Assembly (NCBI RefSeq): GCF_009389715.1
Contig: NC_052399.1
Span: forward strand, 3,116,938 to 3,180,937
From: Phoenix dactylifera
Lineage: Eukaryota; Streptophyta; Magnoliopsida; Arecales; Arecaceae
Reading direction: 5' to 3'
DNA length: 64,000 nucleotides
Numbering within the stretch: the first letter of the stretch is position 1; every line of letters starts with the position of its first letter. Below, piece after piece: positions 24,601-62,226 of this stretch. Made by a program: the position numbers and the translations under genes. A model generated the notes under the pieces. It did not search any database. It was not told the origin of the DNA and saw only the letters and a program-made list of their open reading frames with translations.

Positions 24601-27244
24601 TATATATATTTTTACACTGTTTGGATGTATAAATGAAATCTCAAAATACTTCCAAAACCATGAGATTGAAAATTTCTAATTCCAGTAGAATTTTTCTCTC
24701 TTAGTTGTATTCAGATGTTTCCAAACACTTTCTGACAAAATATATATCTTATATTTCGAATTTTTAAAATCGTGAACTTCTATAAAAAAAAAAAAAAATC
24801 TGATGTTCAGATTTATAACCTCCAAGCGCAGCCGTGGTGTACCATTAGCTGAAAAATATATAGAAGAGAGATTATTTTTGCGCTATCTTACGGTGAGAGA
24901 CAGGATGCCGGTGATAATTCCCGTCTTAATGGAAAGACCCAAGTAAGAGCCTTCAAAAAGTAGCATGTTGGCCGAAGGAGGGTTGACCCCTTGTTGCAAT
25001 TGCCCAATCTGTTTGGCAGAGACACAGGAATGTCATTAATGAAGCAAGCTTGTAAAAGGGCTTGAAATCTCAGCATCGATGAGCAAAAGGAGAAAGGGGA
25101 AGGGAAAAATATGCATTAAAATTAGAGTACTTACTATGCTGATCCCATGGTGCTGCGCTTTAATGGCAAAGGAAATGATGGTGGAGAGAATCACAGAGGC
25201 TAGAGGAGCTGCTGCTGATACCCAGAAGAGCTTCGGCCTACTCAAGCTCTGTTAAACATTTTTTGATTCGTTATTTCAAACATATCAAAACCCAAAAAAA
25301 AAACCCGCATAATTCTCATAAAAATAATAAATACACCCCCCAAAAAATAAAAAGATAGTGCTGATGGGGGAGAGAAAAGAAAAAAAGAAAATCTTTCAGA
25401 ACCATTCGACTGATGGGCTTTCTAAGGAACTTTTAACGCAGAGGACTAATGGGCCTGTACATTAACCATGCACTCAGGCCCGCTCTTGGTTGTTGTTGGG
25501 CCTGCACATCTCTAGGCCCGTTATATCTGTAAGTCCCCACCAAAGTGGAAGGGCTTCTTTATTTTTATTTTTTAAAAAAAAATTAGTGGAAGGGGAAGTT
25601 CTTCTGTGAAGACGGTAAAAAAGGGCGAACCTTTTGATTCCTTCTTTTAGTGGCAAGCAACAAGAACCCACCGAAATTGAAGCACCCTAGGTTTTAAATC
25701 ATATCCTTTCTTTTATATCAAAAAAGCTTGAGTCTCCTCTCAAATTTAAAATAAAATAAAGGAGGGTGGGGCGCTTACAATTTGCCTTGTTACCAATAGG
25801 AAAATCAGGAAGGAGAAGCCCATTACAATTGTCTGCCAAGCCCACTGCACATCAACATTTATAAATATATTAGATACCATGACATCAGAATCTCATCTTT
25901 TTGTTATTCTGCTAAAGGCTTTCTCTACCTCCGTCCTGTGCTCGAAAACAGAAAGCATCACAGGAATGAACCCCATCTTCTTAGTGAAATGAACTATCCC
26001 AAGCAATCCTTTTAGCTGCTGAAGCGACACGATGATCGCAGCCCCACCCATGAACCCAAGGAGGGTTGCTCTTGACAGAAAATCCACAATAAAGCCCAGC
26101 CTATAACCGGTAACAAAATTTGGTCAGAAAGAAAATTAAGTTTGTTTAATAAAGTAACGTTTATGTGACAGCATGGTGGATTAAGAATAGTTAAGTGTAA
26201 GAGAATCGTTTACCTCAGGAGTCCTAAGGAGGCTTGGAAGACGCCGGCGAAGAAAGTGGCTGTGAAAGCTAGCTGAAGATAAAGGATGGGCTCCTTCTCA
26301 GGAGAGACCTCTTCTCTTAGCATTGATCCCATTACTAACGATGCAATTGATACAGGGCCAACAGCAAGGTCTCTCGAGCTTCCAAGAAGAGAATAAATCA
26401 ATGGTGGCACAAAACTTGAATCTGTTATACCATTTTCAATATAAAAATTTTAGTAAAGCTCTTAGCGGTACATGGTTAAAGGTGCTGAATGATTTCTTCT
26501 AAGGCTTCCACACTGACAACACTTTATAGCATATATAGAGTGTAGAAGTTAAAGACTCACACAGGCCAATGATGGGGGGCAAATTTGCAAGCTTTGCATA
26601 GCTGATTCCCTGTTGAAGTCAAGAAGAGCTATTAAGGTTTCCACCCGATCGTACTGATAGTATTGAGTTAGTGATCTCGAGAAAATTTAAATCGACAAAA
26701 GGAATCTAAAGATGTTTTGTCCCATCAAATACTTTGGCGCTTGACCCTTCGAAAAGTAAAGCGAAAAATAGTTCAGAATAGCCTCGCCTTCTCTCATGTA
26801 ATTAAAATAACCATCTTCTGCGCCAAATTCACTTCTTAAACGGTTGCAGAGCCAAAAGAAACTATCAGCATATTCAGATGCTACTAGATATGATGAAAAC
26901 AACAACAATCTACTGCTACTGATACAAAATAAATATGTAGATAAATTGACAGGCAGGGAGATGGATAGAGAGGGTATTATGGCAAGTTTGCATACTTGTG
27001 GGATTGCCAAGCTAGCAATGGTGAGGCCGGAGACCACATCAGCCTTAAGGAGATTGAGTCCGTACACGGAGCCCCACTGGAAGATTGGGAAGACATACTG
27101 GAAACCCAGGATCACCTTCGTGAAGAAAGGTTGGTTTTTGAACTGGTGGAGGGGATCATCTGGGAAGAAGACCTCATTTAACCTCTGCTTTAGAGACTGA
27201 AGAGTGGTCTTCTTCTGTGGCAAGGAGACCCTGTGGATCTCCAT
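21640..27244 (-). CDS. SULTR3: Group 3 sulfate transporter, SULTR3;3-like (13 exons)
   Basis: This is an SLC26-type proton-coupled sulfate transporter. Plant group 3 members act in organelle or plasma membranes and some carry phosphate. In minus order the exons are 27244-26996, 26609-26561, 26421-26214, 26100-25929, 25844-25779, 25248-25135, 25008-24892, 24313-24187, 24036-23750, 23606-23416, 22210-22125, 22000-21924 and 21810-21640. All are GT-AG and in phase, giving 637 aa, normal for the family. The start MEIHRV matches SULTR3;3 proteins (MEVHKV). Membrane-core motifs include [20 protein letters not shown] (residues 74-93), [33 protein letters not shown] and [11 protein letters not shown]-terminal STAS domain follows at about 505-630, with the conserved DTSG at 561-564. 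No stop or frameshift was found. Group 3 is clear; the exact subtype (3;3 versus a sister) would need a tree. Confidence 0.93.
24153..24178. repeat. (TTTA)6 microsatellite
   Basis: A tetranucleotide run in a sulfate transporter intron, just beside the donor of the exon ending at 24187. Confidence 0.9.
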
Positions 27245-27596
27245 GGGTGTTACGTTTGAAGGTGGCAGAGATGACTCGAGGTCGGCGAAATCTGGGAAGC
27301 TTTCCACTCTGTTGCTGCTTCCGACCATTGCAGTCAGTGGAGGGAGGAGAAACCGGGTTAAAGACGAGCCAAGGGCAATGGAATAAGGCACGTAGGCTTG
27401 AAGAAAGAGTGCGAGAAAGGTGTTACTTATAGACCGATCGGGTGGTGGGAGGGTGGGGGGAGTGTTTGTCCGAGTTGTCATTAGAATACTGGGAAAAGAG
27501 ATCAGAATGTTTGCTATATTTTTTGTAGGGAAGAGCCCGGGAAGTTTGGTAGTTTGACCAAAGGAGAAAAACTGGAAAAATACGCATACCAGTGGA

Positions 27597-27839: not shown

Positions 27840-28200
27840 CAGTGGTTCAAACATACACACAAAAATGATATTAGATTGTACCCAAAAAAAAAAAAGATAT
27901 TAGAAATATAAATCAACACACATCTAATCACATGAGGGTCTTTCTTTTTTTTTTAACAAAAAAAGAAAGAAGAACACACGAGAAGTTTTTTTGGTCCGCG
28001 CATTGCTCCCTTCATGCACCATAATAAGATGTCCTCAGCTAGCATGCAAAACAACCCTCTAAATCTAAATGAAAGGGGAATTCGATCCAACAACTTTAGC
28101 ATAATCATCCAAAAACTGCACATAATAATCGAGAACCTCACCTAGAAAGCTAGTTGAAAGATATTAATTAAGTTCTCTGACATTATATAAGCATCTAATA
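27840..28200. other. Spacer between sulfate transporter promoter and CACTA element
   Basis: AT-rich DNA with two A or T homopolymer tracts. No gene is seen. Confidence 0.5.
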
Positions 28201-28205
28201 TCTAT

Positions 28206-28227
28206 CACTACAAGAAGAAGGAGCTTT
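28206..28227. repeat. CACTA left terminal inverted repeat
   Basis: CACTACAAGAAGAAGGAGCTTT pairs with the inverted right terminus with one mismatch (G for A at position 13). Confidence 0.85.
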
Positions 28228-28796
28228 CCCGACTTTTGTCTGCCGACGCTAAGTAGAAGCGTCGGTAATTTTTTTTGGAAGTCTGGCTTCCGCCGACGCT
28301 TATAAGCGTCGTCGCAACCCGTGGCTTGGGCCGACGCTTTTAAGCGTCGGCGGAAGCAAAAATCATTTTTTTTTAATTTTTTCCTCCCAACGACGCTTTA
28401 GAAAGCGTCGTCGGAGGCCATTATCCCCTCCTCCCTGCAAATTCCTCCCGATATTTTTCCTCCCAACGGCGCCCCCCTCCCCTTCTCTCTCCGCTGCTCG
28501 CCCCCTCCCCCTGCAAAGGTGGGAGATCATCTGCCACAATCACCACTGACTCTGCCGCTGCTCCGAAAGCCTAAAGTCATCAGCTGCAGTCTTCCTATTT
28601 CAGCGTTCTCGTCGCCACAATCTGGTTCAGCTGCAACGAAGAGCTTCAAGAAATGGAGAATTCCAGCACAAACAGCCCCACCCTGCTTTCCACTCCTTGG
28701 CTCGCCAGCGATCCACAAGTCTTGTGGTGAGGGGAGATCTTCTGCGCCATCAGATGAGTTCGACATTCTTAGAAGTCCCGGCATGAAGCTGCCTGA

Positions 28797-28960
28797 AAAT
28801 GGAGTTCCTCTGCAAGTGTAAGGACTCTGAAGAGCTTGATCCTCGAGCGGAAGAAAACTTCAAATGCGGGGTATTGTGCTTGTTTTTGCCCGCTTTCTCC
28901 AAGAAGAAACAAGTAGAAGCTAGCCGAGATGAGCAAGGAGAGCAGAGAAGCACCGTGTCA
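28797..28960 (+). other. Possible second captured coding fragment in CACTA element
   Basis: A plus frame from ATG at 28799 reads MEFLCKCKDSEELDPRAEEN and continues with balanced composition to about 28960. It then dissolves into the pyrimidine-rich ERF leader. It could be an exon from another host gene joined upstream of the ERF, or part of the ERF donor locus. I do not recognise the protein. Confidence 0.3.
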
Positions 28961-29067
28961 ATCCCCTCCCCTCTCCCGATCCCTCAAACCCCCTCCCTTA
29001 CAAATCTCTTTTTATCAATATTGGCTCTTCTATCTTATCTCTCTTCTTGCTTTGCTGGATTCTTATC

Positions 29068-29934
29068 ATGGCGTCCATCGTCGACGATGACTCCACCCTC
29101 GACCTGATCCGCGAGCATCTCCTCGGAGACCTACCCCTCTCCCCTCTTCCCCCGCCCTCCGCCCCCCACGGCATCGCCGTCTCCGACTACCTTGACACCA
29201 CCCAGCCCTTCTCCGGCAGCGGCCGCATCGATCCCTACGGAGTGCTGGAAGCTTACCGCTTCACCGAGCCGGTCGACCCCATGATCCGGTTCGGCGGCGA
29301 CTCGCAGCAGGCCTCCGACCTCTGCCTCCCGTCGCTCACCATCTCCCTACCCCCGGTCCGAAAGTTCGAGATCGAGTGGACGGAGGAGGCAGCAGCCGTA
29401 GGGCCGGTGGAGCACAACGACGGGCGGCGGTACCGGGGGGTGCGGCAGCGGCCGTGGGGGAAGTTCGCGGCGGAGATCCGGGATCCCAACCGGCGGGGAT
29501 CCAGGATATGGCTCGGGACTTTCGACACCGCCGTCGAGGCCACGAAGGCCTACGACCGCGCCGCTTTCCAGATGCGCGGCTGCAAGGCGATCCTCAACTT
29601 CCCCAACGAGATCGGCAGCTTCGGCCGCTGCATCCCGCCCCCTCCACCGCCGCTCGCAACGGCGGGGAAGAGGAAGAGGGCGCCGGCCGCGGCGGAGGAG
29701 GCGAAGGAAGGTGAGATGAGGCCGATCAAGAAGGAGAGGTCTCCGGAGATGGAGGAGTCGGCGGAGGAGAATATTCCGTCGGTTTGCCCCTTGACGCCGT
29801 CGATTTGGAACGGGCGTGCAGCGAGGAGTTCCTCTGCAACGAGGAAACCGTTCTTTTTTCTTTTTTTTTTTACAGGGGACAGCAAGGTTTTCTTGGGTAT
29901 TTTTATATTTTTTTCCCATAAAAACAATTTATGA
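29068..29934 (+). CDS. ERF (AP2/ERF group IX) transcription factor, 3'-truncated, inside CACTA element
   Basis: ERFs bind GCC-box promoters in the nucleus; group IX members regulate ethylene, jasmonate and defence responses. The frame starts [20 protein letters not shown], with the LDLIREHLL motif typical of ERF2/ERF5 relatives. A complete AP2 domain spans about residues 121-183 ([44 protein letters not shown]), with Ala and Asp at the ERF-type positions. A KRKR nuclear signal follows at 201-204, then [10 protein letters not shown], the start of a group IX C-terminal motif. After about residue 248 the sequence is unrelated: a T-rich tract and transposon terminus add some 40 residues before the stop. 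So the C-terminus has been replaced. The intronless GC-rich gene body contrasts with AT-rich flanks. It may be expressed as a truncated DNA-binding protein or be silent. Confidence 0.8.
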
Positions 29935-30137
29935 CGATGCTTTAAAGCGTCGCTAATTGAAGCTTTAGCGACGCTTAAAAGCGTCGCTAAAAATAACCTT
30001 TAGCGACGCTTTTCAAACGCGTCAGTAATTTTTTTTCCACTCCGACATAGCCGACGCTTTGGTGACGCTTTTAAAAGCGTCGGGAAGAAAATTACCGACG
30101 CTTATAAGCGTCGGTAAAAGCCTCAAAAAGCGTCGCC

Positions 30138-30159
30138 AAAGCTCCTTTTTCTTGTAGTG
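30138..30159. repeat. CACTA right terminal inverted repeat
   Basis: AAAGCTCCTTTTTCTTGTAGTG is the inverse of the left terminus with one mismatch. Confidence 0.85.
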
Positions 30160-32690
30160 ATAGATCCTTATATACTCTTGCCGTATAACTCTAATGTCCT
30201 CGCCAGATTTAGGGACTAAATCCATGCAAATCCTGCGTGCCATAAATCTAAATACAAACATCATAATTGGCATGTGATCAATCCCAATGAACTGTGCTAT
30301 AGTGTTCCACATCCACATGAATCATCAGCCGGATCTGCTCTGATACTATTTGTAATAATTCGGAACATCGTTCAAAAAAACCATTCGAAAAGTTTTATTT
30401 GAGTACCTTATCTTATATAGCTAATGTGGCATTAAACATATGCCCATCTTTATCAAAGTTGCACCCGTCTTTTAATCACCTTTACAAGGAATATCTTAGC
30501 TCTGCTAAAGATAGACGAAAAGCAAAATGAAAGGTTTCAGAATTTGTCCCAACGACTGATGCCAATGGACTTGCATACTTGAGCTGACTTGCACCATTTG
30601 GTACAATGCAATGATTTTGAACACCTATAACTTGGCTGGTGAAGGGAATCGAGACCCATATGAACTTAAAATTAATACTGCCTCGTTGATGAAAGGTTGA
30701 TAAATTCTCCCTGAAATATCAGCTGATGTATAATTAGTAAATAGATAAAATATTCGCTATAATTCCATGAAAATCAAGTTATTAAATAGACGGCATGTAT
30801 AATTGGCAGAACAGGGAAAATAGATGAAAAATATTGGCTGACATATCAAAATATCATCTCAGCCGTTATCTTGATTTCAATTTATATTGGCCAAGTTAGT
30901 CATAGTTAATATTCCCACATCTACGCTACACCCAATAACAAAGTAGACTCATATCTCAACCTAGAATAAAGCTATATTCCGGGATGTGATTATGTCCGGT
31001 ACGCAACATAGTAAAGCTACCATTACGAACAAAGCAATATAGAAAAAGGCATATTATTCTGTTGGGCTGTTGTTCAAGTGATGGATCCCCGTCTATGGCT
31101 TCCTGTGATAACGACAAGGGCAAAAGATATCAATATGGAAAACCGGTCCTTGATCCAGAGCGTGCAGCCACGCCAGGGCATCCTATTCGTAGGGGTTAGG
31201 GTTGTATTTTTCATGCAAAAGAATGATTGATCTTCTTCCGTGACTTTGGTCATCGGACCATGCCTGCACAAACCTCAAAGCAATATGGACTCCTTCATTT
31301 ATCTATCTGATAGAGAGAATATTGGTCATCCTAACCTCGGACTATCTCAATCTCTCAGGACTCAGCCTTAGCCCAAGTGAATGACTTCGGTACAGATCTA
31401 TGTCTTATTTTGGTCGGACCAGCTGTAGAATAATATTACCAAAGCTGCATTTATGGTCTCGACAACAGTCAACCCAGCTTGGCCATAAATGTACAATCAA
31501 TACAATTAACATTGTGGATATACTGCAAAGATCCGTTACTGTGCAATTATCGTGCCTCCCGACGAATAAGGCAACGAATACTTACCCTTGCCTATATATA
31601 GGGGCACCCGAGGGACCCTCAAGTAAGTTCTCTTGAGCGCTCTTCCATTATCATTTTCTCTTTTTCCTACTGTTGCTTTAGATTTCCACTGACTTAAGCA
31701 TCGGAGGGTCTTCCGCCGGAAACCTTCCGACAAGTGGACTTTTTTGCAGGTTGATTTCATCGTAGCGGTGTGGAGCTAACGACGTCTTGAAGCTATGCTT
31801 CAACTCTTAACAAACCTGCCTTCCTTAGTTTTGGCCGACCTCAGCATACTTCGGTTTTGGCGACCTTAGCGTACCTCGAGTGATGACCGACCTCAACTCA
31901 AATTCTAGCATCAACACTACTTAGATCTTGGAACGGTAATCGAATGATCCAATGGTAGAGTTAGGCGAAGGATGATGAATCTTTTTTTTGCGTACGAAAG
32001 ATACAACTCCTGCCCAATTTACAGGACCATCTATTAATTGGCATATGAGACTTTGACGCATCACTATATTGGCTTCTTTAGAAGGCACAATCCTGTTGTG
32101 ATGACCGGAAACTAGTCGGGTAACGGTCCTAGTCCTCATAAGCTTTGATTGTCAAAAAAAAACAGTCCATAGAAAAATGTATTTTTAGCTTTGATCTTTG
32201 AAATATAGCCGATAGAAAAATAAATTTTTCAAAGAAAGCATGAGAGACCTATGCATATTTTAATTTTTCTAGACCTAATTTCTAAGGATGTACCATTCAA
32301 AAATAGAACCTAAAATTGGCAAATTGACGGGGGTCAAACCTCAATTCACATGGTCGCCACAAAGTCAAAATTATTAACATAAAGTATTTTACCCTAGATA
32401 AATTATTATACATATTTATTGGTGAACAAAAATGTCCGGAAACAATTCTATAAGTCTTGCAATGCTTTCCCTATTCAAATATGAAATATTAAGTGTAGAA
32501 CTACAATGATATCTAAAGCTATCACATGGAGCCATAACAACCTCATGTAGAGCGTGTGCCCAGGCAAGTTTTTACAACAATAACTGAAGAAGTTTGTGCC
32601 CAACCTCTTATTTGGTTCGCATGAAACATTTTTTCTCATAGAAATATAATTTCTCAAAAGTAGATTCTTGAAAAGAGGATATCTGGAAAA
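30160..32690. other. Intergenic DNA; LTR-like block at about 31060-31915
   Basis: No gene is supported. The 31060-31915 block is GC-richer and has a TATATATAGG box at about 31591, followed by GCACCCGAGGGACCCTC and then a run ending in CATCAACA. This is the layout of a retrotransposon LTR promoter, and TG/CA-like termini are possible. No matching target duplication or partner LTR was found, so a solo or decayed LTR is only a suggestion. Confidence 0.35.
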
Positions 32691-46439: not shown

Positions 46440-46800
46440 GAAATAGGAATAAAAAAGAATAGGGTAATATGTGAACATTAGTAATCGAAATAATGAATTC
46501 AGTCAACTTTTCTGAAACCACAGAAGACATAGACTAATTGCTAAATTATGTTGAAACCTGCGAACATGCAGAGTAAATAGCATACAGTATACCTTTAGAA
46601 CATTAACAACCTATTTTGTCGAAGGAAAAAGAATAGAGAAATATATGAATCTTAGAAATTGAAAGAAGGAAATAAGGTAACTTATCTTAGACCGCAGAAG
46701 ACACAGGCTAATTTCCAAATTATGTTGAAACCTGTGAACATGCAAAAACAAATAGCATACAGTATACCTTTAGAACATTAACAGCCTATTTTGTCAAAAA
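46440..46800. repeat. 174-bp direct tandem duplication
   Basis: Two copies are offset by 174 bp. ATTATGTTGAAACCTG occurs at 46545 and 46719, and AGCATACAGTATACCTTTAG follows in both. Each copy starts with an AAAAAGAATAG segment. Identity is roughly 80-85%. Confidence 0.8.
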
Positions 46801-49838: not shown

Positions 49839-50793
49839 TGTTGCTGGAAATTGGACCCGGGGGCAATCTTCGGTCGAGGGAGAGGGAGCTGCGGGATCAC
49901 CACGGCGGGGCGGCGACCAGTCGGCGGGCGGCGTCCTCCGTCTGGGGTGGCTGGAGAGAGGGAAGCAGGAGGTCCTCACAGCGGGGCAGCGATCCGTCAG
50001 CGGGCGGCGTCCTCCGTCTGGGTGCCTGCAGACAAACCGATGGCCGGGTTTTCCGGCGCCGGCCCTCCGACGCTCAAGTCAGGGAGGGGGCAGATAGTGT
50101 AAGGAGGAGATGAACAGTGCTTGTAAGGCGCGGAATTTTCCAACCCCCTCCTGAGAAGCTAAGGCTCCCTTTTATAGGTGGGGGTCGGTTTACCTGTGAT
50201 GTAACAGGGCGAGGCCATAGTACGGCTCGGCATGTGGCTCAGGTCGGCGCACGGTCAGGCGAATCATTGTGCTGATGTCGGCGGTGAGGGCGTCGTACGA
50301 CCCGAACCAGTACGCTACCAGGCGAATCATTGCATTGGTGTCGGAGGTATGGCCGAGATCAGAGACTTATCATGGTTGACCAGACTCTGCTGGGCTAACT
50401 TGCCGTGGAGAGCCGAGGATCCGTAGATGTCAGGAGCCATGCGCATTAATTGTGGAGTAAGCCGGAGATCCGCATTAATGGTGGAGTAAGCCGGAGATCC
50501 ACATTAATTGTAGAGTGAACCGGAGGATTACAGCGGCCATGCGCAATAAATGCTGAAGCAGTGGCAGGGTATGGTCCTCAGTTGGACCTCGGAGGAGTAC
50601 GGCCGTAGTAGGTGGCTGACAAGGGTAGACCTTGAGCGTCAGGATTTTCCTAGGTCGGAGGTTTCGAGGTCGGATGTCTTGAGGTCGGGCGTTCCGAGGT
50701 CGGACGCCGACTTCGGCTGTTCAGGGTCGGCGATTGTGCGGCTTCTTGGAGGCATTTGTGTCACTTGGGGGGAAAAATCTTATTCCCCCAACA
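49839..50793 (-). repeat. Long terminal repeat (3' LTR in element orientation)
   Basis: It begins TGTTGCTGGAAATTGG and ends TTCCCCCAACA in plus reading. It contains a minus-strand TATAAAA at 50170-50176, a 29-bp tandem repeat (about 50450-50525) and four 15-bp AGGTCGG units (50652-50711). Confidence 0.95.
50652..50711. repeat. Four 15-bp AGGTCGG repeats in the LTR
   Basis: Units start AGGTCGGAG, AGGTCGGAT, AGGTCGGGC and AGGTCGGAC at 15-bp spacing, in the U3 start of the element orientation. The copy in the other LTR is at about 63038-63097. Regular spacing of a GC-rich word near an LTR end suggests factor-binding sites. Confidence 0.75.
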
Positions 50794-50806
50794 CTACCCC
50801 TCGACT
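50794..50806 (-). other. Polypurine tract
   Basis: In minus reading, AGTCGAGGGGTAG lies directly before the 3' LTR, at the place where plus-strand DNA synthesis of the element is primed. Confidence 0.7.
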
Positions 50807-51474
50807 TCCGAGTTCGAGCGGCTTGCGGGCTCGGACGTGGGAAGTAAAGTCTATCATTAAAGTTGGGGGGCGAATCTCGTCTGCGCCCTCGTGTTTCTCG
50901 GAGTGTTTATGGCGAGACCCGCGCCCTTGGGCGTTTCGAGGTTGCTTTATTCAGCGAACTTATGGTGGAGCTCGTGTCTTTACGTTTCTCGGAGCGGGTG
51001 TAACGGGGGTGGCGTCTCTTGGATCGCCAAGATCGCTTCGTGCGGCGGACTCATGATGAGGGTCCTTGGGCTCGACGAGGCGACGCCTCGATCCCGTAAT
51101 CGGAATTCTCCGCTCATCAATGAGCGTGCCGTTACGGGGTTCAAAACGGACACGCGGCATGACCTAGGATCGGACGTTTCCGATCTCGTATTACTGGATC
51201 ATGGATCCGGCGAGGTGAAGGCTACGTCGGGGCTCCACGTGCCCCAGGGCCTTATTAAATGAGGGGAGCGGAAGTGCCGTCCGTTCGTTCTTCAAGGCGA
51301 TTCGATTCTGCGGACCCATAATGAGGCCCCGAGATCCGATGGGACAGGGCTTCGATTTCGTACCCGATTTATTGATCCAGAGTGAATACGGTGCCTCGGT
51401 CTCCGAGGTCAACACGTGGCGCAATCCGATCGGGGGATGGGAACCGACCCTGCCGATCTGGACCGCCGAGGGGG

Positions 51475-51485
51475 TCTATATAAAC
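51475..51485 (+). promoter_or_regulatory. TATA box of the antisense gene
   Basis: TCTATATAAAC on the plus strand is followed at the usual distance by a leader and an ATG at 51695. It lies outside the LTR, so the antisense gene appears to have its own promoter, on the strand opposite to gag-pol. Confidence 0.7.
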
Positions 51486-51694
51486 CCCTCGAGTTTGCCC
51501 TAAGGGTTTTACTTGGCTGCTTCTTATTTTTGTTGTCTTTCTCCCTCGCTTCCTTCCTCAACCGTCGCCGTCGGTGCCCGGAGCGATTTCCGGCGATGTC
51601 TAGTAGGTTCCTACCCTGCAACTGCTAGGGTTCCCCTTCCTTTTCCTTCCCCAGTTTTCATTCTCTGCTTTCGATTTCACTTCGCTCCTGTAAA

Positions 51695-53819
51695 ATGGGT
51701 CTTGGTCCGGAGGAGGTAGGGTCCAGCCTGTCAGGGGAGGAGTTGGAGTTAATCCGCTCCCGGTTTTTCTTCCAGCCCGGGTTTCGTCTCGAAACTGCGG
51801 GGCCGGAAGACAGGGTGACGCGGCCGCCCCCAGGTCGGATCGCGATTCACCGCGAGACCCTCTGGGCCGGCCTGCGGTTCCCTGTCCACAGGTTTGTGAA
51901 CGACTTGCTGGTCGAGTACCAACTTGTCCCAGCACAGCTCGCTCCGAACTCGTGGAGAACCATCATCGGGTTCCTGTCTCTGTGCCTTGGGCATGGGGTC
52001 CCGATTTCAGTGAGTATTTTCCGCCGGTGTTTTCTGTTGAAGAAGAACCCGGCGGACGCGGAGTGGCTATACTTTGCCTTCCGAGGCGGTATGTCGCTCT
52101 TCCGCGGGGCCCCTTCCTCTATACACGAGTGGAAGGGGAAATTTTTCTTTCTGGCGTCTGAGGCGCCGTGGGGGTTTAATCCGAGGTGGGGACACCCTCG
52201 GTTGAAGGCCCTTAACAAGCTCTCCGAGCCCTCGGGGAGGGAGCAGAGGACCCTGGATTCTCTCCGAGCCCTCGGGAAGGGCTACGACCTGACCGAGCTC
52301 CTACGGGAGGACGCCCTGGCGAGCGTGGGTCTGAGCTCGGCGCGCCCCGAGGGTAAGGGTAGTTACATTACCCCTTTTTTTTTGTCCTTTGTTCTTACTG
52401 CTAATGGTCTAACACTTGATGATATTTTTGATTTCAGATATTCCCCATATGCCGACCAGCAACACGTCGCTTTTTTCTCGCCTGAGGAGGCGGGAGGCCG
52501 AGGCCGGGGGAGCTATACCCCGGCCTCGGAAGAAGGCGAGGCTGGCCGGTGCTTCTACGTCGGCCGAGACGAGCGGCCCCGAGGCGGGGGCCTTCTCAGC
52601 CGACCCGAGGCGGGCGCGGGTCGTCGACGACGCGGGCCCGTCGGCCCCTCCTTGCCCTGCCCCCGTTTCCCAGCGGGAGGGCCCGGCTTCGGGTTCCTCA
52701 CTGCGTCCGGGGCCCGAGCCGACCAGGGGCCCTGAGGCAAGCGGCCCCAGAGTCCCGAGGCCGGACGCGCCGAGCTCCTCAAGATACTTCGAAGAGGAGT
52801 CGGATGAGCCGGACTCCCCTATCCCTGTGGGGAGTTCGGCTATTCATGATGTTGAGGTCGCACGCGTCGTGTTTCGGCGTGCGATGCTTCCGGCGGACCG
52901 GGCCGAGTTCCGGAACATTCCGTTGGAGGACATTGTTGACAGTGCCTACTGCAACACTGCCCGGGTAAGTCCTTTTCTTGATTTCCTTAAAGTTATTAGC
53001 GAGTCCAGATGTTTTTAACTCACGATCATTTTGTCTCTTTCTTTACAGCATATTCACGAGCTCGATTCCCTGGTGTTCATCGCCCGGGGATGTCAGGAAG
53101 AGACCCGGCGGGTCAGCCGGCAATTGGAGCCGGCTAAGAAAAGGATCGCCGAGCTGGAGGCGGCGTTGGCCGAGGCCGAGGCTCGGAGGGCGGCCACCGA
53201 GGCTGAGCGCCTCGCTATGGCGGAGGGGCTCAAGGAGGAGAAGGCTGCTCACGCCCTAACCAGGTCGGCCTTGCGCGCCTCAGAGGCGCGCCTGGGGGAG
53301 GTCCAATCCGAGGTTGCGGGCCTCAAGTATGAGGACGGGGTTTCCCGCCTCCGAATCGAGCAGCTCGAGGCCCGAGAGAGGAGGGCACTCGAGCGAGTTG
53401 ATCATGCCGTGGAGCTCTTCAAGGGGTCGCAGGAGTTCCGCGACATGTTAGAGGAGGAGACGGTCGACGGGTTTCTCCGGGGTTTCGAGAACTTCCGGCT
53501 GCAGGTGATCCGGTACTGCCCCCAGTACGACTTTTCGACGGTCCGTCCGAGGATGGACGCGGGCTACGGGTCCGACACGGAAGACCTTCCTGCCATTTTG
53601 ACATCCGAGGCAGGATTGTACGAACAAGACCCCGCCGAGCCTTCGACGAGGGCGGCCGAGACGGAGGGTGTCCCGGAGGCGGCACCGGCGGCCGAGACGG
53701 ACGACGTCCCGGAGGCGGCACCCGAGGCCCCTGCCCCCGACCCCGAGCCTGTGCCGGCTGAAGATCCCGAGGTCATCACAGTGCCAGACGATCCCCCGGA
53801 TGCAGCTGCCGCCGCTTAA
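51695..53819 (+). CDS. Antisense ORF of the Tat element, PF04195-like, three exons
   Basis: Predicted exons are 51695-52352, 52438-52964 and 53049-53819. The introns are short and T-rich with GGTAAG...TTTCAG and GGTAAGT...TTACAG ends, and phases match exactly (1 and 0), giving 651 aa. Residues about 40-200 (HRETLWAGLRFPVHRFVNDL, then NSWRTIIGFLSLC and WYLFAF-like aromatic stretches) resemble the 'putative gypsy type transposon' domain (PF04195), commonly found in such elements. The middle is basic and Ser/Pro-rich with an RPRKKAR signal. Residues from about 396 form a coiled coil (EETRRVSRQLEPAKKRIAEL), and the tail is Glu/Pro/Ala-rich. Known Tat elements carry antisense ORFs of unknown role, possibly regulatory. 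The splicing is my inference from phase and site quality. Confidence 0.75.
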
Positions 53820-54100
53820 GGCTTGGCGCATTTTTTCATGTCAGCGGGCGAGATTGTGGAGGCACAGGCGGAGAAGATGGATCCTTCCCTGATAGAGATG
53901 CTAAAGAAGCGTGGGCAAGACAAGTCAGGGAGAAAGAAAGGTGCTGACTTGAAACGGGAAGGGGGATGGCATGATCTGGGAAGTGCTAAGCCAGTTGGAG
54001 AAGACCCCGAGCCTGTGCCGGCTGAAGGTCCTGAGGCCATCGCCACGGACGACCCCGCGGATGTTACTGCTGCCGCTTAAGACTTGGCGTATTTTTTCTT
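53739..54100. repeat. Tandem duplication of the antisense ORF 3' end
   Basis: The segment GACCCCGAGCCTGTGCCGGC...GCCGCTTAA...CTTGGCG occurs at 53739 and again at 54003, offset by about 264 bp, including the stop codon and the sequence just after it. A frame in the second copy (53823-54080) ends with the same DPEPVPAE...DDP tail, so the gene once ended at either stop or has been extended by duplication. Confidence 0.75.
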
Positions 54101-55620
54101 TTTCATTGTATCCGAGGTCGGCTCTTGAATGGCCGACCTCCAATTTTGTAATTGGCCTTCCGGCCCTTTGTCAATGAAAAATACTTTTGTCATTTTGTGC
54201 TCGTCTTTCCCTTTCTTGTCGTGAATGAGGCTAGAGTCTTAGCTAACCGCCTCGACGACCTCTAACTCTGTATTTTAGTTCTCGGGCCACTTAACGAAGT
54301 TGCTCTTTTCCTGAGTTATACCTTAGCCTTCTCGGATCTTAGTCATTCCGAGCAAAGGGAGCTCCGAGCTTAGGTTTCCAGAAAATTTTCCTAAGTCCTA
54401 TAACTCGGACCTTAGAATCGCGAAAGTCGTCACGTTCGGCCTTTAGGGAAATCCCAAGGCATTGAGGTCGGGCCTTAGCCCTTCGAGTAGGACCGGGCTA
54501 GGTCTGTTCGTGCCGCTACTCGGGGGAGTCTAGTCGGTTTTCCGAACTTGACTTCCGGGTCCTTTGTAGGGAGCGCGGGCTAATAGTCAAATTATCGCCG
54601 AAGGTTTTCATAGTTATTGTTCTCGGACTCTGCCGAGATTTCAGTGAGTAAGGCTGGAATCTCTGAAGATCGCCTTAGTGTCTGTGTTCGGCTGGTGCAC
54701 TCGCGGCCGGGACCGCTTTCTCAGCTAGACATCGGAGTCTATGTATGGGGGCCGAGTTGGGCCCTAACTTACGAAGACTTTGTTCAAGTTGAGATTTGAC
54801 GAGTGGAGACTTGTCCAACGGAGCATGCATAATGTAGTTAGGAGATCGGTCTTAAGCCGACCCATTGGAGTAGCCCGACTTTGGGGCGGGATAGGACTCC
54901 AACGTTAGATGATTAGCGGTATGTAGATAAAATTTGACAAGGAGGGCATCGAGTTAGATGTACCTCCTCTTCTTACTATTAGATAAAATTCTCAATGATA
55001 AAATTTTACCAGTATAGATTTTCACCTCTGAAAGTTGTTAGAAACAATGGTAATAATCCAGCTGTCTTTCGAAAAGACTAATCAGCTACCCACGAACACT
55101 CACTGCCAACGCGAGGTCGGGAATCAGCCGCCTTTTTAAGATAGATAGCCGCCACGGGAAAGAGCTCGTCTTTATCAAACTGACAGACCCGTAAAAAGTG
55201 GTCCCAACCCTTGAGGATACGGTTTGATGGACTATTGGAAGATGCACAATTGCAGACGGCATCGCGCATCTCAGGCTAACCTGCTTACCTCAAGGGAGAG
55301 GTGCATATTCAGAGAATGAAACTAAAACTCGGAGTTGTGTTCCACATGGCGGAGTAGGTTGCTTCCCTTCCTCGTCGTCCTCCGGAGTCATTTTGACTTG
55401 TAAGGGGGCTCGGGCTTCTCACGGACCCGACGACACCCACCGAAGTTGAGAGGATCTGGAGAGGCTTTATTGATCTACAGTTCTTTTCGAGGTCGAGGGA
55501 GCTTGGTCGGACCCCGGGGCGCCTCAACCTTAGTCGAGGAGTCTTGTGTCAGGTCGGCGGGCCTGTGGGCGCTCTACCGAAGTAGGGTGCGCGCTAGTTC
55601 AATGGCAGAGCTCTGCTTCA
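54100..55620. other. Non-coding part of the Tat element
   Basis: This is the 3' region of the antisense gene (AATGAAAAATA at about 54172 could be its poly(A) signal), followed by GC-rich DNA dotted with TCGGxC and CGAGGTCGG words. A degenerate copy of the downstream array unit is visible at about 55485-55600. No further gene is supported. Confidence 0.5.
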
Positions 55621-55627
55621 GAAAGTA

Positions 55628-56640
55628 TTGTCCGCTTCGGGGATCGGGGATCGTCGACCGCTCCCGGGGGTCCACTTTGTGGTGCCCCGGGTGGAACCAC
55701 CCTTTCCACCCCTCACGGCTTCGTCCCGAGGTCGAGGGAGTTTGAGACTCTACGGTCGACCCTCGGGGCATCCCGACCTTAGTCGAGGGATCGTTCGTCA
55801 GGGGATCGGGGATCGTCGACCGCTCCCGGGGGTCCACTTTGTGGCGCCCCGGGTGGAACCACCCTTTCCACCCCTCACGGCTTCGTCCCGAGGTCGAGGG
55901 AGTTTGGGACTCTACGGTCGACCCTCGGGGCATCCCGATCTTAGTCGAGGGATCGTTCGTCAGGTCGGTGGGTTTGGGCACGCTCTACCGACCTGCGACG
56001 CTTTCCGAGGTCGAGGGAGTCTGGTTCTCTATGGTCGACACTCGGGGCATCCCGACCTTAGTCGAGGAATCGTTCGTCAGGGGATCGGGGATCGTCGACC
56101 GCTCCCAGGGGTCCACTTTGTGGCGCCCCGGGTGGAACCACCCTTTCCACCCCTCACGGCTTCGTCCCGAGGTCGAGGGAGTTTGGGACTCTACGGTCGA
56201 CCCTCGGGGCATCCCGACCTTAGTCGAGGGATCGTTCGTCAGGTCGGTGGGTCTGGGCACGCTCTACCGACCTGCGACGCTTCCCGAGGTCGAGGGAGTC
56301 TGGTTCTCTACGGTCGACACTCGGGGCATCCCGACCTTAGTCGAGGAATCGTTCGTCAGGGGATCGGGGATCGTCGACCGCTCCCGGGGGTCCACTTTGT
56401 GGCGCCTCGGGTGGAACCACCCTTTCCACCCCTCACGGCTTCTTCCCGAGGTCGAGGGAGTTTGAGACTCTACGGTCGACCCTCGGGGCATCCCGACCTT
56501 AGTCGAGGGATCGTTCGTCAGGTCGGTGGGTCTGGGCACGCTCTACCGACCTGCGACGCTTCCCGAGGTCGAGGGAGTCTGGTTCTATACGGTCGAGCCT
56601 CGGGGCATCCCGATTTTTGGCCGGGGAATCTGAGGATCAC
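55628..56640. repeat. 279-bp-period tandem array
   Basis: The phrase GGGGATCGGGGATCGTCGAC starts at 55638, 55801, 56080 and 56359. The last two spacings are exactly 279 bp, made of a 163-bp A unit plus a 116-bp B unit; the first spacing is one A unit alone (163 bp). Because 279 is a multiple of three, reading frames stay open through the array on both strands (370 codons on plus, 91-135 codons on minus), though nothing marks them as genes. Similar arrays in Tat elements have seeded satellites elsewhere. Confidence 0.9.
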
Positions 56641-56745
56641 AGACGACCCAACATTAGAAGAGAATTACAGTCATCAAAATGAGAGAATTATTCGCAAAAA
56701 GGAAGCTGAGTCCATTGTTCTGATTGTTCTGAACCCCTAGGGGTT

Positions 56746-59700
56746 TCATTGGTGGTACATTCGTAGATTCTCGGAGTTCCTGCTTCGCGGGATCGGAGTC
56801 CCCTCCAGGGACTTCAATTTGTATGCCCCTGGTCGTTGTACCCGGGCGATTTGATACGGCCCTTCCCAATTCGGGGCGAGCTTTCCTTGCTCGGTCGGTT
56901 GAGAAGCCTCGGCTCTCCTGAGAACGAGGTTCCCTACTTTGAAGAGCTTGGGCTTGACTCTGGAGTTGTAGTATTGGGCCGTTCGCTGTTGGTATCTTGC
57001 CATGCAGACCCGGGCGACCTCTCGTGTCTCTTCGACGAGGTCCAAGTTGCTCCTGAGCTGGGAGGAATTGGTGTCGGGGTCATAATGCTCCACCCTTGGA
57101 GAAGGCAGGCCGATCTCCAACGGGATGACGGCCTCAGTGCCGTATGCTAGGTTGAAGGGGGTCTCTCCTGTGGGCAGTCGGAACGTGGTCCGGTACGCCC
57201 AAAGGACATTGTACAAGTCCTCGACCCACTGTCCTTTGGACCGATCAAGCCTAGCCTTGAGTCCCTGCAAAATAGTGCGGTTAGTTACCTCAGTTTTTCC
57301 GTTTGTCTGGGGGTGAGCAACCGAGGTGAAGCGGTGATCAATGCCGAGCTCGGAGCAAAATTCCCTGAAATGGACATTGTCAAATTGTCGACCATTGTCG
57401 GATATAAGGATACGGGGTAGTCCGAATCTGCAGATTATGGACTTCCACACGAAGTCCCGCATCTTTTGCTCGGTGATCCGGGCGACGGGTTCGGCCTCGA
57501 CCCATTTGGTGAAGTAGTCGATGGAGACGACCAGGAACTTTCTTTGTCCGGAGGCTTGGGGAAAGGGCCCCAGGATGTCGATCCCCCATTGGGCAAATGG
57601 CCAGGGGGCGATGATAGAAGTCAGCAGGGCCGAAGGTCGGCGCTGGATATTGGCGTTTCGCTGGCACCGATCGCATTTCCGGACGAAATCCGTCGCATCC
57701 TTCTGGAGTGTGGGCCAGTAATATCCTTGCCGCAGGATCTTGTGGGCCAGTGCCTGACTCCCCATGTGATTTCCGCAGATCCCTTCATGGACCTCTTGGA
57801 GGGCATAGTCCGCCTCGGAGGGGCGGAGGCATCTGAGAAGGGGAGAAGTGAATGATCGACGATAAAGTCTATTCTCGTACAGGACATACCGGGGGGCTTG
57901 GCGCTTGATTCGGCGAGCCTCCGTCTCGTCATGAGGTAAGGTCCCGTCTTGGAGGTAGCGGACGAGCCCATCGATCCAGCTTGGCTCGGAGTCGATGCAC
58001 ATGGTGGGCTCGGGTTCCTCCGTGCTGGGGATCTGGAGATACTCGAGCGTTGTTCCCTTGGGAAGCTCGCTCATGCGGGAGGTTGCCAATTTGGACAGCT
58101 GGTCTGCCCTGAAGTTTTCCGCCCTGGGAATGTACTGAATATTGAAAGAATTCAGGGCAGACGTAAGTTCCCGCACCTTTTGGAGATACTTTTGCATGGA
58201 TGGCTCTTTAGCTTCAAAGTCTCCTTGGATCTGGTTCACTACCAGCTGGGAGTCGCTGAAGGCCGTCAGGTCTTCCACTTTCAGTTCTTTCGCCAGCTTG
58301 AGCCCGGCGATGAGAGCCTCATACTCGGCCTCATTGTTCGAGGCCGGGAATTCGAGGCGCAAGGCTTGCTCGGCCACTACTCCGTCTGGACTGGTGAGGA
58401 TGAGTCCGGCTCCGCTACCCCCCGAGGTTGAAGACCCGTCCGAGTGCAGGACCCATGGCTGCCTCGGGGCTTCCTCCGCGGATACGGGTGGCAACTCGGG
58501 GTCGTCCGGCAGAGTACACTCCACGATGAAGTCGGCGAGTATTTGGGCCTTGATAGCCGGCCTGGGCCGATACTCGAGGTCAAATTCCCCGAGCTCAACT
58601 GCCCATTTGGCGATCCTCCCCGCACGATCCGACCTTTGCAATATTTGCTTCATAGGCTGGTCGGTCAATATAGCTATTGTGTGGGCTTGGAAGTAAGGCC
58701 TGAGTCTCCGAGCCGAGATGATGAGAGCGAAGATGGTCTTCTCAAGTTTAGAATATCGGGTCTCAGCATCCCTGAGAACCCGGCTGGTGTAATAGACCGG
58801 CTTTTGGAGCTTGTCCTCTTCCCGGACGAGGACTGAGCTCACTGCGGCCGGGGAGACGGCCAGGTATAGATAAAGAACCTCGCCCTTCTGGGGCTTGGTG
58901 AGCAGCGGGGGAGAGGCCAGAAGGCTCCGGAGCTCTTCAAAGGCTCGCTGGCATTCTTCTGACCACCGGAAGTCTTTCGGCCGTTTGAGGCTTTTGAAGA
59001 AAGGGAGGCAGCGCTCGGCTGACCGAGAGACGAACCTTCCCAAGGCGGCAACTCGCCCTGCGAGCCGCTGCACCTCCTTAACTGTCTTCGGAGGCGACAT
59101 CTCTTGCAGTGCCCGGATTTTCTCCGGGTTAGCTTCAATTCCGCGCTGGGTCACTATGAAACCCAGGAACTTGCCCGAGGTGACCCCGAACGCACATTTC
59201 GCCGGGTTGAGCTTCATTTTGTATCTTCTGAGCTTGGCGAATGTCTCGTCGAGATCGGCTATGTGGTGTTCCGCCGCTCGGCTTTTCACCAGCATGTCGT
59301 CCACGTAGACTTCCATATTTCGGCCGATCTGGTCTTTGAAAATTTGGCTAACCAGTCTCTGATAGGTGGCCCCAGCATTTTTCAGTCCAAAGGGCATCAC
59401 CTTGTAGCAGTAGGTGCCCTTGTCGGTGATGAAGGCCGTCTTCTCCTCGTCTTCTGGCGCCATTCGGATTTGATTGTACCCTGAAAAGGCGTCCATAAAA
59501 GTTAGCAGTTGGTGCCCTGAAGTAGAGTCGACGAGCTGGTCGATGCTTGGAAGGGGAAAGCTGTCTTTCGGGCAGGCCTTGTTCAGGTCGGTGTAGTCCA
59601 CGCACATACGCCATTTTCCGTTGGCCTTCTTTACGAGGACTACGTTGGCGAGCCAGTCCGGGTAGGAGACCTCCCGGATGAAGCCAGCTCCGAGGAGTTT

Positions 59701-62193
59701 GTCCACCTCCTCGGCCGCAGCACGTTGCCGTTCCGGGGCGGAGCCCCTTTTCTTCTGCTTTACAGGCCTGCTGGTTGGCCTCACCTGGAGTCGGTGAACC
59801 ATGACCTCAGGGTCAATTCCCGGCACGTCCGCAGGCGACCAGGCGAAGACGTCAGCATTGTCCCGCAGGAAGCTGACGAGGCGATCCCTCTCGCGGGCGC
59901 CGAGGCCGGAGCCGACCTGCACGGTTAGCTCGGAAAAATTTTCTTTTAGTGGAACTTGAACAAGAAGCTCACCGGGCTCTACTTGCTTCTTCCAGAGGGT
60001 GTCCCTCGCATCGAGGGTTTCTATGGGCAATGAAGGGCCCGTTGGCTGAATTGTCGCCTCGGTCGGTTGCTTTACTCCGTGGGCCGCCGTGTAGCATTGC
60101 TTGGCGACCAGCTGGTCTCCTCGAACCTCGCCTACTCCTTGGCCGGTGGGGAACCGCATGAGCAGATGGTGGGTTGAAACTACGGCTCGAAGGGCATTCA
60201 GCCCTGGCCGCCCAAGGATGGCGTTGTAGACCGAGGGCAGCCGGACCACCAGGAAGTCCGTCCTCACAGTGCTCTCCCGGGGGGCGAGGCCAACTGTGAC
60301 AAGGAAGCTGGTCTCATCTTCGACCGGGACCGAATCTCCGGTGAACCCGACTAGCGGGGCGTTGATCCTCCGGAGATGTCCTTCTGTCAACCCCATTTTT
60401 TGGTAGGCATGATAATACAAAATGTTGGCTGAGCTTCCATTGTCAACTAGGACACGCTTTACATCAAACTTATTTACAATCATTGAGATGACCACAGCGT
60501 CATCGTGAGGGGTCTCGACCCCTTCTAAGTCCTCGTCCGAGAACGAGATGACTTCATCAGTGCGTGGGCGTTTCGGGGGTGCTCCCGGGGCGGCTGCTCC
60601 TGCTGAGGCCCTTCCAATCATGTTGATGGTGCCGGCAATGGGCCTGTTGTCGTCTGGATTTTCGGTTGGTACGACATCCTCCGCCGGCCTCCTTTCCTTG
60701 CGCCGGTTTCTCACGAACCGGTTGAGTACTCCTCGACGGATGAGTGCTTCTATCTCGTCCCGGAGCTGGAAGCAGTCCTCCGTGTCGTGCCCACGGTCTC
60801 GGTGGAAGTGACAGTACTTCCTGGGATTACGGGGAAATCCCGTGTCTCGCATAGGCGGCGGGGGTCGGAAGAAGTCCCGACCCTCGATTTCCATCAGGAT
60901 CTCGGCCCGGGGGGCGTTGACGGGTGTATAGTTCTCGTACCTCCCCGGGTACGTCCGAGGCCGTGGTGGGGACCTCGATCGAGGAGGGGTCCTCTGCTGA
61001 GGTCGCCCCTGCTGACGGGGCGGGCTCCTCAGTCTGGGGAGATTCTTCTTTCGACGGGGGGATCGGCTCCTTTGTCGGTTGCGCTCCTCGCGGCGCTTCT
61101 TCTGCTTCTTAGAGGCGGGCTCAATTGCTCCCCGCCTAGAGGCGACTGCCTCCTCGGCCTTGGCATACTTCCGGGCCCGGGCCAACATTTCGGTGAAGTC
61201 GGCCGGGAAGCTCTTCTCGATGGAGAAGAGGAATCGGTAGGAGCGAACCCCAGTCTTCAGAGCCGACATGGCTATTGACTGGTCTAGCTCGCGAACCTCC
61301 CATGTGGCGGCGGTGAAGCGGTCCAGGTATTCCTTGAGGGACTCCCCCTCTTTCTGTTTGATGTCGAGGAGGGAGTCTGACGTCCGTCGCTGGCGCCGGC
61401 TGGCAGCAAAGTTGGTGGCGAACTGCCTGCCGAGTTGCTCAAAAGAGGACACCGTGTTCGGCTTCAGTCCAGAAAACCAAAGCCGAGCGGTCCCTCGGAG
61501 GGTTGCTGGGAAGGCCTTGCAAAGTATGGCCTCCGAGGACCCTTGTAGGGCCATGAGGGCCCGATAGCTCTCCAAGTGGTCGAGAGGGTCGGTGATTCCG
61601 CTGTAGGGCTCCACCTGAGGCATTTTGAACCTTGCGGGAACCGGCTCATCCTCGATCCGGCAGGAGAAGGGGGACTTGGTAGTGAACTCAAAGTCTCCCT
61701 CCTGCCTCGCCTTCTTACTGTGGAGCGCTGCAATTTGGCGCTCCAAGTGCTCAACCTTTCTGTCGAGCTCCCTCACTCGCAGGATTGTCGCCGCGGTTTG
61801 CGCCGGCTCACGGCGGTCCGGGGCTGACTCAGCCTCAGAAGGCTGGAGTCTTCTGTTGAGATCCTCCCCCGGTAGCTCTCTCTGGGGGGAAGTCCGTTCT
61901 TCGTTATTGGCTCTGGAGGAGCCATGTAGATTCTGGCCGGGGAGGACCGGGCCGTTGGGAAGAAATTCCGGCGGGACCTGGGCCCGCGGGGGAAGCGTTG
62001 GTAAAGCTTCCTTGCGTCGCAGGCCCTGAACGGCGGCAGCCAGGGCCTGGATTTGCTGTACTAGGGCATTGAACTGTTCCGGCTGGACCTGAGGAACTGG
62101 GTCAGCCGGAGTTGGAGAATTCTGGACGGAGCGTCCAGGACTTTGCGGGGGACGCCGGGAGACGTTGGAGGCTCCCTTACTTCTCAACTTCAT
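56746..62193 (-). CDS. Gag-Pol polyprotein of Tat-lineage retrotransposon, intact
   Basis: An 1815-codon frame starts at MKLRSKG only 34 bp after the 5' LTR. In order: Gag core at about 180-350 (GTARLWFSGL); a basic Arg/Ser/Pro stretch at 360-415; a zinc-knuckle-like C-x2-H...C cluster at 461-474; protease with VDNGSSANIL (Asp584; DNG rather than DTG is usual in this lineage). Reverse transcriptase follows at about 830-1010 with YVDD at 963-966. Then come RNase H at about 1105-1230, a second archaeal-type RNase H at about 1246-1370 (SDGSS), and integrase with a zinc finger H1469, H1476, C1507, C1510 and the triad D1539, D1599, E1635 (35 residues between the last two, as expected). It ends NLRMYHQ. 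No stops or frameshifts, so the element may be able to transpose if expressed. Confidence 0.95.
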   Translation of the reverse strand: MKLRSKGASNVSRRPPQSPGRSVQNSPTPADPVPQVQPEQFNALVQQIQALAAAVQGLRRKEALPTLPPRAQVPPEFLPNGPVLPGQNLHGSSRANNEERTSPQRELPGEDLNRRLQPSEAESAPDRREPAQTAATILRVRELDRKVEHLERQIAALHSKKARQEGDFEFTTKSPFSCRIEDEPVPARFKMPQVEPYSGITDPLDHLESYRALMALQGSSEAILCKAFPATLRGTARLWFSGLKPNTVSSFEQLGRQFATNFAASRRQRRTSDSLLDIKQKEGESLKEYLDRFTAATWEVRELDQSIAMSALKTGVRSYRFLFSIEKSFPADFTEMLARARKYAKAEEAVASRRGAIEPASKKQKKRREERNRQRSRSPRRKKNLPRLRSPPRQQGRPQQRTPPRSRSPPRPRTYPGRYENYTPVNAPRAEILMEIEGRDFFRPPPPMRDTGFPRNPRKYCHFHRDRGHDTEDCFQLRDEIEALIRRGVLNRFVRNRRKERRPAEDVVPTENPDDNRPIAGTINMIGRASAGAAAPGAPPKRPRTDEVISFSDEDLEGVETPHDDAVVISMIVNKFDVKRVLVDNGSSANILYYHAYQKMGLTEGHLRRINAPLVGFTGDSVPVEDETSFLVTVGLAPRESTVRTDFLVVRLPSVYNAILGRPGLNALRAVVSTHHLLMRFPTGQGVGEVRGDQLVAKQCYTAAHGVKQPTEATIQPTGPSLPIETLDARDTLWKKQVEPGELLVQVPLKENFSELTVQVGSGLGARERDRLVSFLRDNADVFAWSPADVPGIDPEVMVHRLQVRPTSRPVKQKKRGSAPERQRAAAEEVDKLLGAGFIREVSYPDWLANVVLVKKANGKWRMCVDYTDLNKACPKDSFPLPSIDQLVDSTSGHQLLTFMDAFSGYNQIRMAPEDEEKTAFITDKGTYCYKVMPFGLKNAGATYQRLVSQIFKDQIGRNMEVYVDDMLVKSRAAEHHIADLDETFAKLRRYKMKLNPAKCAFGVTSGKFLGFIVTQRGIEANPEKIRALQEMSPPKTVKEVQRLAGRVAALGRFVSRSAERCLPFFKSLKRPKDFRWSEECQRAFEELRSLLASPPLLTKPQKGEVLYLYLAVSPAAVSSVLVREEDKLQKPVYYTSRVLRDAETRYSKLEKTIFALIISARRLRPYFQAHTIAILTDQPMKQILQRSDRAGRIAKWAVELGEFDLEYRPRPAIKAQILADFIVECTLPDDPELPPVSAEEAPRQPWVLHSDGSSTSGGSGAGLILTSPDGVVAEQALRLEFPASNNEAEYEALIAGLKLAKELKVEDLTAFSDSQLVVNQIQGDFEAKEPSMQKYLQKVRELTSALNSFNIQYIPRAENFRADQLSKLATSRMSELPKGTTLEYLQIPSTEEPEPTMCIDSEPSWIDGLVRYLQDGTLPHDETEARRIKRQAPRYVLYENRLYRRSFTSPLLRCLRPSEADYALQEVHEGICGNHMGSQALAHKILRQGYYWPTLQKDATDFVRKCDRCQRNANIQRRPSALLTSIIAPWPFAQWGIDILGPFPQASGQRKFLVVSIDYFTKWVEAEPVARITEQKMRDFVWKSIICRFGLPRILISDNGRQFDNVHFREFCSELGIDHRFTSVAHPQTNGKTEVTNRTILQGLKARLDRSKGQWVEDLYNVLWAYRTTFRLPTGETPFNLAYGTEAVIPLEIGLPSPRVEHYDPDTNSSQLRSNLDLVEETREVARVCMARYQQRTAQYYNSRVKPKLFKVGNLVLRRAEASQPTEQGKLAPNWEGPYQIARVQRPGAYKLKSLEGTPIPRSRNSENLRMYHQ

Positions 62194-62210
62194 GATTGCT
62201 ACTCGGGCCC

Positions 62211-62226
62211 TTCCTCTAGCGCCAAC
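62211..62226 (-). other. Primer binding site of the Tat element
   Basis: In minus reading, GTTGGCGCTAGAGGAA directly follows the CAACA end of the 5' LTR, where a tRNA 3' end primes minus-strand synthesis. The TTGGCGC core suggests a tRNA ending in GCGCCA plus CCA-type bases, but I could not assign the tRNA. Confidence 0.65.

Follow-up and report, generated by a model that had tools for sequence, protein, structure and literature searches.

CACTA transposons with pieces of host genes, and Pack-CACTA elements assembled from several loci, are already in print, and the date palm element described here is a well-preserved new example. In soybean, a CACTA element with mobilized gene fragments was reportedly described by Zabala and Vodkin in 2007, with its fragments said to undergo alternative splicing and hence to be transcribed; we take it to be the element named Tgm-Express1. 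The date palm element resembles it in being a CACTA element that carries gene fragments, but whereas Tgm-Express1 is reportedly transcribed, the element here is known from DNA sequence alone. In Chenopodium, CACTA elements harbor an 80-bp AP2 fragment upstream of a transposase domain (PMC8978399). There, as here, a CACTA element has captured part of an AP2-family gene; in contrast to the 80 bp in Chenopodium, the date palm capture comprises 786 bp with the whole AP2 domain and the start codon, and the element around it lacks a transposase. Pack-CACTA (Pack-TYPE) elements of Arabidopsis, maize, and rice are characterized by CACTA ends, the lack of a transposase, gene fragments of several loci, and newer cargo in an internal position, the last being accounted for by a model in which neighbouring elements fuse (PMC8903248). 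The date palm element shares its CACTA ends, missing transposase, multi-locus host fragments, and internal newer cargo with these elements. It differs from them in that its sister elements keep the cargo of which only a scrap is left here, making the order of captures readable. The leading results of a literature search do not name this element, which is no proof of its absence from print.

The window, i.e., the whole stretch of 64,000 nucleotides that was analysed, contains a non-autonomous CACTA element of 1954 bp at positions 28206–30159 with an ERF fragment inside. The original prediction had placed a CACTA transposon with a captured ERF here, and its coordinates proved exact: the element begins with CACTACAAGAAG at 28206 and ends with TTCTTGTAGTG at 30159, inverted CACTA...TAGTG ends bound it, and the predicted subterminal palindromes (CGACGC...GCGTCG) are found at both ends. 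The inverted repeat spans 34 nt (28200–28233 and 30132–30165) and is 91% complementary. Inverted termini starting with CACTA together with subterminal repeats identify a member of the CACTA (EnSpm) superfamily. The ends belong to a real and abundant family, since the terminal word CACTACAAGAAAA is counted 471 + 453 times in the genome versus 37 + 39 times for the same word read backwards. The 3-bp target site duplication of CACTA (EnSpm) elements is present in the family but not in the window copy or in the copy on C790; the window copy is bordered by TAT and ATA, which form no direct duplication. Its longer flanks, ATCTAT (28200–28205) and ATAGAT (30160–30165), are inverted rather than direct repeats; a TAT duplication minus one neighbouring base would explain part of this arrangement. 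No part of the window matched an Rfam family. The element comprises the following features, all on the plus strand.

28206–28511 (+): left-hand terminal part of the CACTA element with inverted end, subterminal CGACGC palindromes, and the start of the pyrimidine-rich leader (inverted repeat; element positions 1–306 common to sister elements)
28513–28961 (+): fragment of gene X, a captured host gene of unnamed family, from which two larger internal stretches of the donor are missing (match to C4:30257657-30258180)
28960–29009 (+): remnant of the family's own leader (element 755–804; sisters 96–100% where fully matched)
29010–29023 (+): 14-base filler at the left ERF junction (junction comparison)
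29024–29809 (+): captured ERF fragment with part of the donor 5′ UTR, codons 1–247, and one base more (98.1% over 786 bp to C5:2609982-2610767, minus strand)
29068–29934 (+): chimeric open reading frame of 288 aa, ERF residues 1–247 followed by a tail outside the ERF frame (list of open reading frames, copy comparison)
29428–29580 (+): AP2 DNA-binding domain (PF00847, residues 121–171; AtERF1 2gcc, E 4.4e-28)
29806–29843 (+): 38-bp scrap of an earlier IRX15/GXM cargo, with TGGA common to it and the ERF end (match to sister cargo)
29854–30159 (+): right terminal region of the CACTA element, of which 29864–29885 is common only to GXM-type sisters (inverted repeat, sister comparison)

A donor of the ERF fragment is present on another contig as a complete and intact gene of 282 aa (L015), whose minus-strand bases C5:2609982-2610767 align with element bases 819–1604. 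The captured piece starts within the donor 5′ UTR, downstream of a TATA-like motif of the donor, and the match runs as far as the first base of codon 248; 247 residues are therefore kept and 35 are lost. The ERF frame opens with an ATG at 29068 and contains a single AP2 domain, as is characteristic of ERF proteins within the AP2/ERF family; the claim that this domain is intact is borne out by the match to PF00847 (E = 1e-14, 55 bits versus a cut-off of 33.3), and AtERF1 is the closest solved structure by sequence. The paralogue L016 largely conserves the lost residues, TTVWDGADVMGVFTVPPLSPLSPHPQLGFPKLIVS. They include PLSPLSP, which occurs in the donor and in L016 and not in the element. The ERF would belong to group IXb (ERF5/6/104-like), which has a C-terminal phosphorylation motif of the MAP-kinase type, and PLSPLSP is the likely MAP-kinase site, to which S266 and S269 of ERF6 presumably correspond. 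In Arabidopsis, MPK6 phosphorylates ERF6 on S266 and S269, and the level of ERF6 changes as a result (PMC5905223); ERF102 to ERF104 are reported MPK3/MPK6 substrates (PMC7220888). The C-terminal part of the ERF, a putative activation region, has been cut off, as had been proposed; its supposed replacement by transposon sequence does not hold as worded, because the ERF is followed first by the 38-bp IRX15/GXM scrap at 29806–29843 and only then by the transposon. Finding the donor and comparing breakpoints, which had been suggested as a check, yielded the intact 282-aa gene and sharp breakpoints. Together with the recurrence of the unit in six copies at five independent sites, this bears out the idea of gene capture, and capture of the ERF by the CACTA element is strongly supported.

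Two further captured fragments, gene X and the GXM scrap, and the evidence for an exchange of cargo were absent from the original prediction. The gene X fragment differs from its donor (L073, on C4) by 8 mismatches over 449 element bases, with 75 gap positions, and Pfam names no family for it at a cut-off of E 0.1. Since its identity to the donor is 98.2% and that of the ERF 98.1%, both captures look similar in age. Capture of spliced RNA was considered and is unsupported: on inspection by eye, neither of the large gaps in gene X (two in number) has the appearance of a GT-AG intron, and the ERF donor, being one open frame, is uninformative in this respect.

The bases 29806–29843 match the cargo of sister elements, in which Pfam detects IRX15_IRX15L_GXM (E 3.3e-29 and 1.3e-42). 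Among the loci fetched, 22 sister elements were compared, the shared repetitive leader being masked before their cargo was classed. They fall into a GXM class (6), a class with a TPR-like frame (4, with Pfam matches to TPR just below the cut-off only), a class of 9 in which no domain could be named, and three single elements, L024, L079, and L080. L024 carries a fragment with a Myb DNA-binding domain in reverse orientation. The cargo of L080, likewise in reverse orientation and with only a Fib_alpha match below the Pfam cut-off, resembles a BOI-type RING ligase and may be a fragment of one; in L027-type and L079 cargo, Pfam found nothing at a cut-off of E 0.1. When up to 5 substitutions were allowed, the 38-bp scrap and its adjoining border (element 1659–1680) were found in 6/6 GXM-type sisters and in none of the 16 others, while a left leader piece (781–804) is less specific (6/6 and 7/16, respectively). 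This distribution, together with the 449 bp of a third gene upstream, argues for a mosaic Pack-CACTA whose cargo has been exchanged, a reading that we consider highly probable and the best explanation as a whole, although the lack of a direct target duplication at the window copy is a point against it. The ancestor would have been a sister-type element carrying an IRX15/GXM gene, which would then have lost most of this cargo and gained the ERF fragment from C5 and the gene X fragment from C4 before the mosaic spread to five independent sites. A search of the genome with GXM cargo gave eight element-like matches to the full query among the best 40 of 86 candidates. A match on C22 (98%) spans the gene part only, an extent from which C22:98345-99345 is likely to be the GXM donor; a match on C7 (73%) is a more distant relative. 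The 38 bp may instead have been captured independently of any descent from a GXM-type element.

Short overlaps (CAA, TGGA) and filler mark the junctions, a picture that break repair would produce; at the left end of gene X neither is clearly visible. The exchange may have proceeded by such repair or by fusion of neighbouring elements according to the published Pack-CACTA model. Fusion would once have needed neighbouring elements at the donors, whereas the DNA up to 1.5 kb from the ERF and gene X donors contains no significant match to CACTA ends (the best covers 19 bases at E 0.011). A transposase of its own is missing from the element: its open reading frames have been listed and the remainder of the 1954 bp matches ends, leader, and cargo, the Pfam scan within the element covering the ERF frame and two gene X frames. 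The element was presumably moved in trans by CACTA transposases still encoded in the genome. Candidate sources exist in the form of Transposase_21 frames, of which all 150 scored (of 534 candidates) pass the cut-off, many without an internal stop; their pairing with the ends described here is hypothetical. As a gene capture, the case is clear and in essence ordinary; unusual is how well the replacement of one cargo by another can be read. It offers a clean case of one transposon lineage that dropped one host gene and acquired two, and with two donors and their junctions in hand, acquisition and exchange of Pack-CACTA cargo become directly testable.

A search with the whole element across the 773-Mb genome returned at least six copies with the ERF cargo, namely, the window copy (on C8), one each on C107, C790, and C371, and two on C4, in answer to the suggestion that further copies be looked for. 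Searches with the ERF part or the gene X part alone gave the same six copies, the donors, and more distant relatives. In the whole-genome DNA searches, the best 40 of 1316, 123, 76, and 86 candidates were scored, so copy counts are lower bounds. Five copies are full length; the C371 copy is split by about 10 kb of LTR-element-like sequence that starts with TGTTAG, ends with CTAACA, and sits in a run of G. Since the DNA flanking the C4 pair is 99.7–99.8% identical, these two copies represent a single insertion that was duplicated afterwards, leaving five independent sites for six copies. Divergence among copies amounts to 0.8–1.2%, and to 0.15% within the C4 pair. Matching 3-bp flanks surround four of the six copies (AGA on C107, TCT for both copies on C4, ATG on C371), while on C790 a terminal base of the copy is altered and the flanks are AAT/TAT. 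Among the sister elements, 17 distinct ones have both ends inside the fetched locus, and in 16 of these the 3-bp flanks are identical, L076 being the exception; this count leaves out five more sisters that were truncated by the edge of the locus or whose alignment stopped short of the end. On either side of the C107 copy (L010), the 1.5-kb flanks have a 764-bp direct repeat in common (87%), so this copy lies within or between other repeats.

Whether the captured ERF has retained a function was judged from the changes accumulated among the copies. Over 744 columns, the six copies show 17 distinct changes, of which 13 are C-to-T or G-to-A and 12 of these lie at CG or CHG. This pattern is the usual mark of methylated DNA and is here an indirect sign, as the sequence is GC-rich and the count stands without a computed null. 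The ERF cargo of the window copy is probably passive, methylated passenger DNA at present. The same observation can be turned into a regulatory reading, in which small RNAs or methylation arising at the element would act on the donor ERF in trans. Its 786 bp matching the donor at 98%, its palindromes capable of forming hairpins, and the 12 of 17 changes at CG or CHG would fit, but a mutation type is an indirect sign of methylation, and we regard such an effect on the donor as unlikely.

Lower still is the likelihood that the truncated ERF is expressed, binds GCC-type sites without its PLSPLSP tail (the likely MAP-kinase site), and competes with the donor ERF or escapes the control exerted on it. 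Four of the six copies keep an uninterrupted frame as far as codon 247, and those on C107, C790, and C371 have no amino-acid differences up to there; in its favor as well, phosphorylation by MPK6 affects the level of ERF6 (PMC5905223). When changes private to the window copy are set aside, 3 of 11 are non-synonymous versus 7.2 expected (P = 0.009), a split chosen post hoc, whereas across all copies the figure is 8 of 17 (one a stop), against an expectation of 11.0 for identical mutation types (P = 0.10). In the window copy itself, five of six changes are non-synonymous, including A159T in the AP2 domain, at a residue that is Ala in AtERF1 and in all 17 AP2 domains parsed from the genome (16 fitted to the pattern and one, L050, parsed by eye, with several of the 17 identical or near-identical and seven of the 24 ERF loci not parsed). 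The C4 pair has a stop at codon 122, and the far end of the chimeric tail varies between copies. The 862-bp element leader contains six ATGs upstream of the ERF start and no TATA-like motif by the one pattern used; the only such motif within 400 bases upstream of the donor ATG lies at -107, outside the captured piece. With no TATA-like motif, six upstream ATGs, the decay of the cargo, A159T, and the codon-122 stop, a working ERF competitor is unlikely, and most unlikely at the window copy, where the proposal of a truncated DNA-binding competitor has found weak support. The regulatory role of the captured ERF is probably small. A further elaboration, which we hold to be slightly more improbable again, combines cargo turnover, in which slots in a fixed frame of leader and ends are emptied and refilled with GC-rich host genes, with selection of the truncated ERFs on C107, C790, and C371 as uncoupled from MAP kinases. 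Finally, a resident ERF gene with CACTA ends as separate insertions around it, to which the lack of a direct target duplication at the window copy might point, is ruled out for practical purposes, because the whole unit of ends and cargo recurs at five unrelated sites, four copies have matching 3-bp flanks, and an intact donor lies elsewhere.

With respect to its surroundings, the mosaic Pack-CACTA lies near a first-exon-like frame at 26774–27328 on the minus strand, which has a weak Pfam match to a sulfate transporter (E 0.06, below the cut-off). The start of this frame is 878 bp from the left end of the element, which places the element in its presumed upstream region. Farther downstream, a 174-bp unit occurs in two tandem copies at 46452–46795 (84% matches). 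The region 50400–63000 is a GC-rich block (mostly 57–62%) with a gag-pol-like open frame of 1815 aa on the minus strand (56746–62193), a frame on the opposite strand (51695–52735), and, near 50442 and 62830, short repeat units that resemble each other; it looks like a candidate LTR retrotransposon of the Ty3/gypsy type.
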